From: Paramecium tetraurelia
Lineage: Eukaryota > Ciliophora > Oligohymenophorea > Peniculida > Parameciidae
Direction: 5' to 3'
Length of the DNA: 64,000 bases
Assembly: GCF_000165425.1 (NCBI RefSeq)
Contig: NW_001799066.1
Location: forward strand, 826,601-890,600
A program made the translations under genes and the position numbers. Below the pieces are notes generated by a model, which did not search any database, was not told the DNA's origin, and saw nothing but the letters and a program-made list of their open reading frames with translations. This document shows positions 10,512 to 35,841 of the stretch, piece after piece (position 1 is the first letter of the stretch; each line of letters begins with the position of its first letter).

Positions 10512-12112
10512 ATGTTAAACTCAAAGAAGTTCATTAAAACAAATCAGTTAACTGAATTAAATAATTTTCTACTTTAAGTTAAGCAAGCATTTCTAACAGA
10601 TGTACAACATAAATCTATTAAATAAAGGATTTCCAATAGGCTATTGAAACTACAAATGTAAATGACAATAAAATTCCATTACAAGAGATTCTTCTAAATA
10701 ACATTCCTTAAGTAAAGTAGGATTAATAAAAGTAACCTACTTAATTACCTACGGATGAAATTTAACATTTACTCTAAGGATTGACAACTCTATTGGAAAA
10801 AAATTTATAAGAATCTCATGATTTGTATCAGATATTCTAATCCAATAAGTAATTTAACAGTAAAGGTGAAAATTCTAATTCTTCTTTCAAATATTAAAAT
10901 GAAGAAAATGTTGAAGAATTGCAAGAAGAAATCAAGTAAAACGAAATACGATTATTGTAAATGCAAAATTCAAGACTATTGAGTAAAATTGAGTCTCTAA
11001 ATGAGTAAATTACTTAGCTAGAACAGGATATACATGAGAACTCTAAAGATTAACGATAATTGATCAGTTTAATTAATTCTACATATTGTATTTAGAGAGT
11101 TCAATATACAGTTAAATAAAATACAAATGTAATTTTAAGCAAAGTAAATGAAGAAGAAATAGAGTAAGGAGTCTTTGTCATTGTTGACGATTAAATAATC
11201 TTATCTCCTTCTTATCTCGATGAAAATAAAATGATTCTGAATATTTCTTAAATTTTAGATGTCACTTATTAAAATGATTTATAGATTACAATTCATTATA
11301 ACGAGGGTAAATTAATTTTAATTTTGGAAAATCACTAAGAATTTGCAAAGATAGATTTATCTTTATGGTCAATCCTAAGAAAAAATATCAGTATAAATTA
11401 AGAGTATTTTAAAGTAATTAATTAATTAGGAAATTGTTTGAGAATAGCTTATTTGAAAGACCCTTCAGATAAGAAATCAATATAGACTATAAGAAATTAA
11501 AGGAGCAATTATCCCACATAATTCCATGGATGGAATAGGATTAGAAATAATAATAACAATAATAATAGTTCACATTAAATTTCAAAAACTCTGACCATTT
11601 TCCTGAAATTCCCTAGAGCAATAATATACAATTGCAATCTCATTAATCACCTGAATTAAGAAGTACATTACCAAAGCAAATGATTCAAATTAATTAATAA
11701 ACTAAATTATAACATGCTCTGCTTTAATTAAAGTAGGGTTTTTCCATGATTAAATATTCGGAAGGATAAAGAAAGCCAAATATAAAGATCATTTATTTGA
11801 CTGAAAATGAATAATATATCAAATGGAAAGAACGAATTACAACCGGGTGATGTGTATAATACTATCGAACCCCAATCCATTTAAATTTCATAAATTAAAG
11901 AAATAAAAGATAGCGCCATAGGATAAGGTTTTGAAAAGTTTAAAAAATATCGGTAAGGAAAGGAGACACTTGGGATTACTATTATTGCTTAAGAGAAATC
12001 TAGAATTAGACGCTCCTAAATAAGAAATATAAAGATTTATTTTTGGAATGTCTAACGATTTTACTCAGAAAAAAAGCAAAATAATAAACCAGAATATAAA
12101 AATAGAAAATGA
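10512..12112 (+). CDS. Coiled-coil protein with PH-like domain, apparent frame break
   Basis: The start at 10512 (MLNSKKFIKT) needs a long 38-nt intron (10602-10639). A coiled-coil follows, then a beta-rich stretch, a second intron (11404-11429, 26 nt) and a short polyGln. The C-terminal third looks like a PH-like domain: QGFSMIKYSEGQRKP, a strand IKIIYLTE, then a region with ISQIKEIKDSAIGQGFEKF and LGITIIAQEKSRI. Between the strand ending IKWK and the segment GDVYNTIEPQ the frame shifts by one base near 11821-11832, with no intron signal. This may be a sequencing error, a damaged allele, or two overlapping frames. PH-like folds often bind phosphoinositides; that is not testable here. Confidence 0.55.
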
Positions 12113-29863: not shown

Positions 29864-32463
29864 ATGATAGTCAGAAGAGATCGCATTCATCATCAAGGTA
29901 AAACCAATCGAGATTTCAAGTAATCTGTATCATTTCATTCAAGGATGTTAGATTCATTCAAAAATACTTCAATTAATCAAATTAATTCTTAAGATGGAGA
30001 TAGAATTGCTTCATTATCTGTTCCCAAAAATAAGAAGTTTTCAGAAATCTTAGACCAGAAGTCTAAAAGAATTGTACAATGCAAAGATCCTGTTGAGGAA
30101 ACAAAAAATTCAGCTAAAAAATTTAACCAACATCATTTAATTGGCTATCCGAGGTATTCAGACCTTGTAAAATTAGATCCTCCAATTTGGAAGAGAAGGA
30201 ATTGATGAAAAGAGTGTTTTGTGGTGATTCTAATACACTTTTCTTTGATGAGGAACACAGGTAAAGTTAAGAAAGTCCGGTTCATACAAAATGTATTATT
30301 CTGTACTTATCAATTAGATGAGTAGAAGGAGAAATTAGCATAGTAGAAGAGAGAGGAGAACACTACAGGAATTCAGGAAACATAGTTAGTCGGTTTAGAA
30401 AATAAGAATACACTCGAAGGCAAGGTAGACCTAGAAAAAGTCAGAGATATCAGAAGAGCCATTAGAAGAAGATATGCAAATAGAAAAAACTTTTAAAAGA
30501 TCTTCAATTTGTGGGATGAAGATTCCAATGGTGCTGTTAGCGTTAAAAATCTATACAACATGATCTAAAGATTAGGAATCAACATAAATATTGATGAGGC
30601 AAGAGTCTTATTAGCAAGTGCAGACATGGATGGGTCAAGTGATTTAGGATTAGATGAATTTCTAGATCTCATTTTCAATGATAAGGATGCTCTTAATGTA
30701 AATTTAAAGGCATTGCCAGCATTAACTGAAGATGAAAAGGATTCTTTGGTAAAAAATCAGGAAACCATAGATTTCCTAAGAAAAGATGCTTTATAAGCTA
30801 GAGATAGAAGACACCAGAATCAAGTCAATCTCATTCTAAAAAACAGAGTATTTATACCCTCTATAATTTAAGTTATAATAATTGGGACAACAACTCACCA
30901 TGTAAGATGAATTACAAAAGGGATACATAAGTTTTGGCAGATTTGAAAGAGTAATTAAGAAATTAGAGATAGATCCCAGTGTACTATCTGATCAAGATCT
31001 CAAAATCTTATATGACAATTTCAAAAATCAAGATGACACATTTGATTATAAAAAGTTCTTGAATCATCTTAAATCATTCTAATTGTAAGAGGAAGTTTAC
31101 AACGACCCATATTCAAACAAGAATCAGGAACCAGTTGATAAGAAATAGTTATTATTAAAAAGCATGAAATATTAAGAGGATCAACTTATTACTTTATTCG
31201 ACATAACAAGAGTAGATGCTCATTCCTTGGAGAAGATGAAAACAAAGACAAAGAATCTTATGAATAAGATTTAAAGATATTTACCTTCACATACAAAATT
31301 TGAGGAATTTCTTAAAAGTAAAATCTAAGGAAATAATGTAAATGTAAAAGAATTTTCTCATGCGATCATACAATTTTTGGAAAGTGTGAATGAAAAATAC
31401 TAAAAATTCGATCTTGAAAGCATGCTCAGCGTCTTGTAATTTAGCTAATATGAAACTTAAAGATCTGATGAAATTGTTAGGATATTGTTTAAGTAAATGC
31501 TAGATCCATTTAATTTAGTGAAACTGACTAGGAATTTTATGACAGAGCTCAATTGAGATAAAAAGGACCAGCACCTCCTGAGAAAGTATCCAAGGTAGAT
31601 TAACTATTATAGGCAATAGAAAATAAACAATAAGATATTGAAAAATAAATCTGTATGAATTAATAAATATGTCTATAGAATTTTACAATTAGGATGCTGG
31701 AATGACTTGGTACTTACCGAACTAATCAAAGGAATTGTCAGATGTGTTGATGAAGGTTGAAAACTCACTTTTCAACAGAAGTGAAAGAGCGTATAAGTTA
31801 TTTAAAGATTTCGATAAAGATAAAGATGGTTATATTTCTTAGTAGGATATGAAATAGAAATTAGAAGAAATGAATATACTTAATGGATAGGAAATTGGAA
31901 TATTGATTAATTATGTTGATCCATCTAATAAAGGATATGCTACTTTTACTGAATTTCATGATAGACTTAGGGCAGGAATGACGATAGTTGATAATGCTGG
32001 AAATCAGTTAATTTAAATTAATAGTTAACCTGGTAAGACTTTTCAAAATGCAGCCAAAACTTTCTTACCTGAATTGTCAAGATTGACTGAAGAATTCAAA
32101 AAACCTTTCAGGCCTCAGACCAATCATACAGATATACGACCTTCGACAAGATTCGGAGCAACTCCTGTTTACAAAAACACATTCGTAAATTTTGTTCCTC
32201 CGAAGACATCTCCTATGTTCATGACCTAAGGGGAACGATTTTCGAAAAACAGGGAATAATTTATATAAGATGAGAGAATTCACAATAACCAAAAATATGA
32301 AAATAAACTGAATAGAATACGATAATACCATCAATCTTTGGATCAAAGAATTCAATCTGCTCTGGAGTAAAGGGATTAGAAGGATGCAAACAATTTAAAA
32401 TCGAAATAAATGGCTTAATGGACTTATGAACATAAAGCGCATCTTAAAAATGATTATTTATGA
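29864..32463 (+). CDS. EF-hand protein, probably ciliary or cytoskeletal
   Basis: About 825 residues from MIVRRDRIHHQG, assembled over at least five introns (including 30848-30872 with an AAG acceptor and 26-nt introns near 31488 and 31651). EF-hands are seen as WDEDSNGAVSV with SADMDGSSDLGLDEF near residue 230-300, and again as FDKDKDGYISQQDM and VDPSNKGYATFTEF near 600-650. Some loops lack the ideal position-12 Glu. A basic tail with RPSTRFGATPVYKNTF precedes a helix. Calcium sensing is inferred. Ignoring the intron near 31651 would split this into two genes, the second starting MSIEFYNQDAG. Confidence 0.75.
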
Positions 32464-32481
32464 TTAAAAATATAATTATAA

Positions 32482-33078
32482 ATGGGATCAGCTTGTGCTA
32501 AATTTGTATGTTAGGATACTATAGATTCTGAACTTATGTCTTTAGAATCCAAAATGAGAACATTAAATGAAATGAGTAAAAGTACCAAATTATCATCCCT
32601 TAAGTTGAGTATAACATACACTCATCTCACAAATTAAAGAAATTCTGAATCAGAAATAAGAGATCTGGATCACCCTATTAACAAAATCAACAAAAGTAAA
32701 GGAAGAATGAAAAGTTTTAATTTTCAAGAAGATCATCAACGATAATTTTGTCTATCCAAAGTTTCTCGTGTCAATGACAGTCCAGTGACTGTGAAAAGTG
32801 AGACCCGAAGAATCAAAAAGAAACATAATCCTTAGAGAGAACTTATTTAGATTTAAAATCTAGATTTATCATTTTATATTCAGAGAATAAGTTACTAATT
32901 AGAGAATAATGAAGAGCAATCTTAAAGAAGCATACTCAAATCTCCATTAAATAAAAGCTTTAATTCTCTCTCTGAATAGAAAAAAGTACATTTCGCTTAA
33001 GGCACAAATTTTAGATCCAATAAGTCATCCCCTTCCAAAAGAACAAAACTCAATCACTTGAGGAGAAGTTTAATTTGA
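32482..33078 (+). CDS. N-myristoylated PP1-docking protein, paralogue A
   Basis: An intronless 198-residue frame. The N-terminus MGSACAKF has Gly2 plus Cys5, a classic N-myristoylation and palmitoylation context, so membrane anchoring is likely. The C-terminal third carries SILK (residues 150-153) and, 15 residues later, KKVHFA (167-172). SILK and RVxF are established docking motifs for protein phosphatase 1, with SILK lying N-terminal to RVxF as here. The rest is basic, Ser-rich and probably disordered. The gene lies 19 bp after the EF-hand gene and is followed by a paralogue on the same strand. A PP1-targeting role is inferred from motifs only. Confidence 0.7.
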
Positions 33079-33136
33079 ATGCATTCTAAGTTTGTATTAG
33101 CATTATTTATATTATATTTTACTAAAAATTCTTAAA

Positions 33137-33853
33137 ATGGGATCATGTTAGATCTAAAGCTTAGAAACAGATACTATTTCCTTGAAAGCCTCTTCTTCAA
33201 ATCGCATTTATACCAAATTAACCAATAATGGTAATCAAATTGTGTAATCTCAAAATGTGGACAACAAACTTGAATTAGATCAAAAAGTTGAAGATGAAGA
33301 AATCTTGTTAACTGTACAAACTAGAATCATTAAAGACAAGAGATTCTATAATTTTCAAGAAGAAGAGTCTCTAAGAAAAATATCCAATAAAGATGATATT
33401 GAATCTCTCAAAAGAGGCTCAAAACAAAAACGAAGATTATTTAGGACTAGTATTACACATAGTCATTTTGATGAAATTAAACAAAACTCCCCAGGCCTCA
33501 ATTAATCTTTATAAGTAGAAAGAGATGATGATGCCAAATCAGTGAAAAGCATATTAAAAAAAAATAGCAAAATAAAAGATAGTGTAAGTGGTTCCCCTGA
33601 AACAAGATCTGTTCGTTTTGCAAGAGGCACTATCTTTAGAACCAAAAGTCAACGTTCGCTTTGTCATTCGAAAAATAAAAAACATACTCGACCTGATCGA
33701 AAACTGAATGAATCAATATACTCGTAAGAGCATAGAAGTCCTAACTGGAAAAGACATAGAGAATAAGAAACAGTGTAAATTATTAAAATTCCAGGTCTGT
33801 TTTAGATGAATCAAAATATAGGAGTTAATACTAAACTATTCCCTTATTATTGA
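33137..33853 (+). CDS. N-myristoylated PP1-docking protein, paralogue B
   Basis: An intronless 238-residue frame starting MGSCQIQSLE (Gly2 and Cys4, again a dual lipidation context). It shares with the upstream gene the block SILK (138-141), RSVRFA (157-162), then GTIFR and a basic tail with SQRSLCHSK, against GTNFR and SPSKRTKL in paralogue A. The N-terminal halves differ and this copy is 40 residues longer. RSVRF fits the RVxF consensus. The 59-bp spacing and same orientation indicate local duplication. The family is unknown to me. Confidence 0.7.
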
Positions 33854-35144
33854 GAAATCTTAATCTTATCTCAATATTAACAACTATTAATGAGTGTCAA
33901 TTTTAATATTTTTCAAAATACATTGATTCATTTTTTTTTAGACTATTTCAAAAGAAGGTGAAATTTCTTCAAATAAAATATCTATTCTAATTCATAGTTA
34001 TTAAAAATTTTAAATAATTCTGTTGTAAGCTAGGTAATTCTAGTTAATTCTCTTTTACTAAGTTATATATATGAATAAATTTTATAGAACAAATTATATG
34101 AAATCTACATTTTTTTTTATAATCTGGAATATTGGATTTTTGATTTGTGTTTAATTTCATATTTTTTATAAGTGATTTTGAGTTTTAATTTTTCCTTAAA
34201 TTTATGGAATTGATCAAAGTTAATCAAAATTTAAGGCTAAACTCCACAATATGAAGTAGAAAATGGTAAAATTACCATAGAAAACTAAATAAATCAATTT
34301 ATATCTAAAAGTCTGAAGAAATTTCCTTTATTATAAGTTTATAGAATAAATTTTGAAATCAGATTTTATAAAATGATAGTGTGATCTATTCCTATTTTAC
34401 TAACGATTTCTAATTTAAATTCCGAAAGCCGATTATCTTTAAATATTAAAATAAAATATATTTTTTTATTCATTTTAATTATATATTTTATTTAATTAGC
34501 TTTAATTAAAGTGAGTATTTAAATATATTATGAAAAATTCTAATAAATAAGTAACTATTTACTTAAGGAAATATAATGCTAATTTATATATGAAGAAGAA
34601 AACCTCATCAAAACTCTATTCTATATTATATTGATATTATGCTTACTAAAAATTCAATCGGATTTGAATAATTATTTAAAACTTACATATTATAAGTAAG
34701 ATAACTTAAAATAAGAACAAAATTATTTCCATAGACAATCTATATTAAAGATAAAACCTATTATTTTATAAAATTTATTAATCAGATAGTTTGAATATCA
34801 TGACTTTAAGATTAAAAATATTTATCAAAAATACATTTTATTTCAACACCAAATATAAGGTTTTATATTTATTTCTAATTAATGTTGTTATCTTATACCT
34901 ATTCTTCATTCTATTTTTATGATATTTAATTCTTTACAAACTAAATCATGTTATTAAAGATTCAGTGAAATGAAAAAACCAAAATGACATATTAAATAAG
35001 TTCTAAATAGGGAGTTTAAAAGATTCATTTAATAGATAAATTGAAAAATGATTTAACATGGACAATAAAAAAACAAAAAAATTAAAAACAACTCATTAAG
35101 TTTGTTTCTTTAAGCTTAATAATAAATAAATGAGAAATAATTAA
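33854..35144. other. 1.3-kb gene-free A+T-rich region
   Basis: The longest stretch without a supportable gene. It contains runs of eight or nine T near 33936 and 34111, long AT-alternating segments, and only short frames in the ciliate code. I see no RNA gene, repeat or mobile-element feature. It could hold a regulatory region, an unannotated non-coding RNA or decayed sequence. Confidence 0.45.
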
Positions 35145-35544
35145 ATGAGAATTGAGATTTCATTGCCAAAATAAGATATCTTTAGCTTACCATAAAGTCG
35201 GAAACAGGAATAGAAAACTCTACAAAGAAGGTTTTATAGGCCTTACAGAAATAAAAGTGTATTTCCAGAATTGAATAGCACGAATGCATTGTATTTGAGC
35301 AAAACTAGTCAGAAATTTAAATTATCACGCAAAGAATGGTAAGACGAGTTACAAACATGTCTCTAGAGTTAATCAGTAAAATGAGTCAAAAATATACTAG
35401 ATTCGTGGGGTTCCTAATAGAAGCAAGGTTTCTTTGTATAGCAGTAAATCGGCACAGAATTTTTGTTTATCGAGCTAATTGTTTAGAAGACCTTTGCCAG
35501 ATTTAAAACCTTTATTGGAAATATCAGCTTAAAAATTATTATGA
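35145..35544 (+). CDS. Small basic protein
   Basis: About 124 residues beginning MRIEISLPKQDIF. A 25-nt intron (35376-35400) is needed. The chain is rich in Arg, Ser, Lys and Gln (RRFYRPYRNKSVFPEL, SKTSQKFKLSRKEWQDEL, NRSKVSLYSSKSAQNF), with no membrane segment and no recognised domain. It stands alone between the gene-poor region and the next minus-strand gene. The splice junction and frame are consistent, but function cannot be assigned. Confidence 0.55.
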
Positions 35545-35841
35545 TAAAATATATTTATACTGATAAAGATTATTTGATAAATAAGATGATCTTATATATA
35601 TATATTGACTATCTCTGAATAATATAATATGAACTAAAGAATAAGTTATGCAACTTACCGATTACAATTGAAGAAATGAATAGATTTAGATGTCAAATAA
35701 TGAAGAAAATTCTCTTCCAAATACATCATATTCATTTGATATCCTTTGATATTGATTTATTATGATGATTATTTGAAGTAGATTAACAATTTTGTTAATA
35801 TAGCAATTGATAAATGCATTAGGTTTTCAAAATATGTAATA

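Follow-up and report, generated by a model that had tools for sequence, protein, structure and literature searches.

The window analysed here, a whole stretch of 64,000 nucleotides from Paramecium tetraurelia that lies on contig C108 of the 69-Mb genome, contains two short neighbouring genes, here called A and B, which raise the question whether their products dock on the phosphatase PP1 and hold it at a membrane. We think that A and B are PP1 regulatory or targeting subunits encoded by tandem paralogues, with A probably tied to a membrane and B doubtfully so, and we give this reading of the sequences a probability of roughly 0.62. When the frames are translated by the ciliate nuclear code (table 6), the adjacent same-strand pair named in a preliminary description of this DNA proves to be real:

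32482..33078, + strand: gene A, 198 aa, intronless, with a Met-Gly start, SILK and RVxF; open frame in table 6
33137..33853, + strand: gene B, 238 aa, intronless, with a Met-Gly start, SILK and RVxF; open frame in table 6

The Met-Gly start that had been assigned to both genes is borne out as well. In A, an in-frame stop lies 18 bp upstream of the ATG and the 18-bp gap contains no GT, which makes a spliced upstream start for this gene unlikely, though possible. The frame of B has a TTG at 33092 as its listed start, and it is open with no Met ahead of 33137. The same 18 bp (32463-32482) are all that separates A from the stop codon of an upstream gene at 31669-32463, which has EF hands and whose best match among solved structures is CFAP115 (E 2e-12, confined to aa 20-96). 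As CFAP115 is a ciliary doublet-microtubule protein, the upstream EF-hand gene may be axonemal.

The arrangement recurs elsewhere in the genome. A second A-B tandem pair, found on contig C121, matches the first in gene order, in the gene upstream and in the 18 bp ahead of A (L002 1480-1501), and a third copy of A, A3, stands alone on contig C2. Identity to the A1 of the window amounts to 80% for A2 and 65% for A3, and B1 and B2 are 75% identical. The silent divergence is large, with dS values of 0.90 for A1-A2, of 0.67 for B1-B2 and of 2.9, which is close to saturation, for A1-A3, and the corresponding dN/dS values are 0.13, 0.21 and 0.09. Such low dN/dS at high dS indicates that A and B are genes and not chance frames, and both of them are under purifying selection. 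Genome searches with A1, B1, A3, B2 and the conserved block of B described below returned these five copies only. A weak match to A3 on contig C36 (E 0.08) was discarded, its frames containing neither MGS nor the block, and viral and genome contig collections, which are not built for ciliates and may omit near-host records, yielded no relatives.

A and B are 27-28% identical, and outside the conserved block their homology is weak, with a BLASTP match of E 2e-4 over 46 aa and a profile-profile match of E 2.8e-4 over 99 colinear columns that carries a probability of just 41%. One short motif outside the block is nevertheless common to both:

32716..32730, + strand: FNFQE motif of A, common to B; F81-Q82-E83 invariant in five of five copies; close to where the colinear profile match begins
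33347..33361, + strand: YNFQE motif of B, common to A; FQE invariant in five of five copies

Neither A1 nor B1 matches a Pfam family at E up to 1 or a solved structure at E up to 10, and a match of A1 to NCBIfam (E 0.018) was taken as chance, its 14.5 bits lying below the cut-off of 60. The densest 30-column window of identity between A and B is a block in which a SILK motif is followed by an RVxF motif and by FAxGTxFR:

32929..32940, + strand: SILK of A, aa 150-153; SILK in A1 and A3, SILR in A2, each inside [GS]IL[KR]
32980..32994, + strand: RVxF of A, KKVHF, aa 167-171; identical in three of three A copies
32992..33015, + strand: block tail of A, FAQGTNFR, aa 171-178; F-A-x-G-T-x-F invariant in five of five copies
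33548..33559, + strand: SILK of B, aa 138-141; identical in two of two B copies
33605..33619, + strand: RVxF of B, RSVRF, aa 157-161; identical in two of two B copies
33617..33640, + strand: block tail of B, FARGTIFR, aa 161-168; F-A-x-G-T-x-F invariant in five of five copies

A1 and B1 contain one SILK and one RVxF match apiece, always with SILK first. The block had been described with a spacer of 14-15 residues; its three elements stand, but SILK and the five-residue RVxF are 13 residues apart in A and 15 apart in B. The consensus [GS]IL[KR] (PMC9582199) fits all five copies of the family, and the RVxF pattern [RK]x(0-1)[VI]{P}[FW] (PMC4794898) fits KKVHF in all three copies of A and RSVRF in both copies of B. 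The stricter RVxF-ext of PMC4794898, in which an extra Lys or Arg stands in front, fits none of them, as this place is taken by Gln, His and Gln in A1 to A3 and by Thr in B1 and B2; RVxF-ext serves screening, and not every member is required to fit it.

The host genome encodes PP1 with pockets that suit these motifs. At locus L015, the match to solved PP1 chains reaches E 8.5e-145, and six of the 30 loci that were fetched, among 79 metallophosphatase matches, are PP1-type by eye. Two strings drawn from the RVxF-groove residues of PP1, one of 20 letters and the other ETLMCSFQ, occur in five of these six loci; L023, likewise PP1-type, is without ETLMCSFQ in the stretch read and has one change in the other groove string. 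The SILK-pocket strings LELEAP and [VI]DEKI are present in six of six. The available text of PMC9582199 gives the acidic pocket for the SILK lysine as Glu54, Glu56, Asp166 and Glu167, with (G/S)IL(K/R) as consensus, and judged by the strings this pocket is intact in all six loci. From sequence and conservation together we infer that A and B dock on PP1, and this reading, which had been put forward before, is well supported, as the motifs fit published consensuses, are retained in five of five copies and have matching pockets in the PP1 of the host.

In the mechanism that we propose, A and B, which are short, have no recognisable domain and are assumed to be disordered, would lie with their C-terminal third along the surface of PP1. 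SILK or SILR would occupy the acidic pocket and KKVHF or RSVRF the RVxF groove, from which FAxGTxFR would continue. Gly2 of A would probably be myristoylated and the nearby Cys S-acylated, which would keep PP1 on a membrane close to the proteins it acts on. Two mutable motifs together with a mutable Gly2 make the placement of PP1 in the cell directly testable.

The preliminary description had further proposed an undescribed system, which is overstated because regulators with SILK and RVxF are already a known class, the combination being on record for homologues of Rif1 as well as for other proteins (PMC3410773). What is new may be the small family with an MG start. As excerpts of the cited papers describe it, mouse Rif1 carries SILK at 2128-2131 and RVxF at 2150-2153 with a spacer of 18 in its PP1-binding region, and both motifs matter for PP1, RVxF most: exchanging SILK for SAAA lowers the PP1 affinity about 20-fold, and RVSA leaves under 0.1% of it (PMC5437018). 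Order and position of the two motifs vary among Rif1 homologues (PMC3410773). Rif1 differs, however, in being a very large HEAT-repeat protein, whereas A and B comprise 198 and 238 aa, begin with MG and have no Pfam match. KNL1 with SILK and PTG with SALK bind to the same surface of PP1, and PTG has an RVxF in addition; the serines of SSILK in KNL1 are phosphorylated by Aurora B, and A and B share the Ser of SILK (PMC9582199, partial text). These two are a kinetochore scaffold and a glycogen-targeting protein with other domains and other places in the cell, and the SALK of PTG comes after its RVxF. No ciliate PP1 targeting protein like A or B was named in the titles and opening lines of abstracts from a search of the Paramecium, Tetrahymena and other ciliate literature that covered few subscription journals, and among the papers listed on myristoylation combined with SILK/RVxF, and on PP1, cilia and okadaic acid in Paramecium, none concerned A or B.

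How much weight the motif pair can bear depends on how readily it arises, for it could be argued that the motifs are incidental and that A and B are short, basic, Ser-rich proteins with look-alikes of SILK and RVxF inside a segment conserved for a different partner. The loose RVxF pattern alone is stated, in the available part of PMC4794898, to occur at random in about 25% of proteins. Each sequence was shuffled 200,000 times and searched for SILK followed by RVxF at a gap of 5-40. The ordered strict pair appeared in 22 shuffles for A1 and in 37 for B1, or roughly once or twice per 10,000, and with the loose RVxF consensus the counts rose to 254 and 419, respectively. Among the 305 stop-to-stop frames of at least 100 codons in the window, three have the strict pair and five the loose one, and among 870 frames of the same size in other fetched loci, a set that leaves out 14 loci at or near the A/B family, the counts are zero and two. 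The third strict pair of the window lies in an open frame at 10524-10886 on the - strand; it is judged to be chance, which counts in favour of incidental motifs. Since the two genes are relatives and were singled out only once the window had been read, their motif pair counts as a single observation, and the shuffle and frame figures lend support without amounting to a test. The retention of the block in all five copies despite large silent divergence is better evidence than these odds. Its core is also rare: the pattern VxFAxGTxF, searched at the DNA level through the genome, has seven exact matches, of which five are the family and two fall in a reading frame other than the local long one, with none in the reversed control, and SILK is found within 50 codons upstream in five of these seven but in none of 19 matches with one mismatch. 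If one mismatch is allowed, 26 matches, the seven exact ones included, compare with 22 in the reversed control. No combination of SILK with FAxGTxF was found in the genome outside the family, in a search that intron-split blocks would escape. At L010 1222-2031, a chance match to VxFAxGTxF lies opposite a frame that by eye resembles a DHHC-type palmitoyltransferase. Against incidental motifs it also speaks that the SILR of A2 stays inside the PP1 consensus, that the RVxF sequences of A and B differ and yet both fit, and that the spacer varies in length and sequence while the motifs stay. We therefore regard incidental motifs as improbable.

The distribution of conservation cuts both ways in this respect. 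Identity is higher in the block than in the rest for A1-A2 (25/29 vs 134/169), A1-A3 (24/29 vs 102/165), A2-A3 (20/29 vs 99/165) and B1-B2 (29/31 vs 149/207), and between B1 and B2 the codons for aa 157-168 differ by two silent changes and by no replacement. Of the gap-free columns, 94 of 264 having been dropped for gaps, 11/29 in the block and 19/141 outside it are invariant across the five copies (Fisher p 0.0035, with block boundaries set after the fact). Among the three A copies, 20 of the 29 block residues are identical throughout, but of the 166 windows that span the same length, 12 exceed this value, some of them overlapping the block. The best-conserved windows of A are aa 19-48 (32536-32625) and aa 104-132 (32791-32877), and Pfam has no match to A. 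As these windows are conserved like the block, A has at least two further conserved elements, and their conservation is not explained by PP1 docking, a point which the incidental reading can claim for itself. Of the earlier argument that conservation of the motifs in otherwise variable proteins reveals selection, the retention in five of five copies thus holds, but the block is not the best-conserved stretch among the A copies; likewise, divergence over most of the length separates A from B but does not apply to the A copies, which share these other stretches.

If docking is accepted, it remains to be asked where the PP1 partners A and B would act, and here the two N-termini differ:

32482..32502, + strand: N-terminus of A, MGSACAK; candidate for myristoylation (Gly2) and S-acylation (Cys5); MGSxCAK in three of three A copies
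33137..33157, + strand: N-terminus of B, MGSCQIQ; Cys4, with Ile6 unfavourable for N-myristoylation; identical in two of two B copies

The PROSITE-type pattern for N-myristoylation, in which position 6 is reserved for small residues, fits all three copies of A and neither copy of B, which have Ile6. Four matches to N-myristoyltransferase are present in the genome. The consensus MGXXXS/T, as given in the accessible part of PMC3688908, fits none of the five, as Ser or Thr does not occur at position 6. A precedent for the arrangement in A is Toxoplasma PPM5C, for which excerpts of PMC8949495 report that Gly2 and Cys4 are both needed for the location at the plasma membrane; PPM5C is, however, a phosphatase of another family, and acylation of A and B is a prediction only. 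Lipid anchoring, which had been predicted for both proteins, is thus plausible for A, with its small residue 6 and Cys5, but doubtful for B, where Ile6 leaves it unsupported. For A we infer lipidation and a membrane location from sequence alone.

The alternative is that A and B do bind PP1 but do not anchor it to a membrane: they would be regulators or inhibitors of a soluble, ciliary or nuclear kind, with a Met-Gly-Ser inherited without a lipid. We hold this to be rather unlikely, if worth serious weighing. Besides the residues at position 6, it can draw on the first 12 codons of A1 and A3, in which six of 12 residues are kept and dN/dS is 0.98, on few sites, so that the N-terminus past MGSxCAK seems not to be held. 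Yet MGSxCAK itself is present in all three A copies, and A3 keeps it although its residues 8-12 all differ; MGS with a Cys is moreover common to A and B. For an inhibitor role one may point to inhibitor-2 (PPP1R2), which likewise pairs a SILK motif, the N-terminal KGILK, with a downstream KSQKW that is taken as RVxF-like (PMC3606321, in part) and has a third motif covering the active site (PMC5437018, in part). In A and B, by contrast, the SILK block lies toward the C-terminus, and neither protein has an inhibitor-2 (IPP-2) match at E up to 1; a genome-wide search with PF04979 gave no match, but as it also gave none in control genomes it has no bearing on absence. A further possibility, that PP1 has a working partner in only one member of the pair and that B is diverging toward loss, takes its cue from contig C2. 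When 33079-35560 of the window is compared with that contig (L006), the gene that follows B (about 35052-35560) has a match downstream of A3, but no match to B is better than chance (none below E 9). The region thus resembles a duplicated segment that lost B, and genome searches with B1 and B2 found two B copies only. Since A and B are far more divergent from each other than the A copies are, B most likely predates the split of the C2 segment and would have been lost there after duplication. Where B persists, however, both frames are open and dN/dS between B1 and B2 is 0.21 overall and as low as 0.07 in the block, and we consider decay of B very improbable.

On C2, the EF-hand gene was not found within the 9.9 kb fetched, but a short remnant of its final codons still precedes A3, as though this piece served as the leader or promoter of A.

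Beyond the docking and the probable anchoring of A, one may speculate on what a membrane-tethered PP1 partner would do in a ciliate. PP1 was reportedly implicated in the backward swimming of Paramecium by Klumpp et al. in 1990, and Momayezi et al. are said to have localised it in Paramecium cells in 1996. A and B could then represent a ciliate-specific, lipid-anchored PP1 targeting family whose two tandem versions, with differing RVxF motifs and anchors, would bring PP1 to the membrane of the cilia or of the cell surface and thereby set how long backward swimming lasts after a stimulus; we put this forward as a long shot. A minor observation concerns the opposite end of A, as all three A copies terminate in Ser-Leu-Ile (33067-33075 in the window, likewise in L002 and L003), which resembles a class I PDZ-binding C-terminus.
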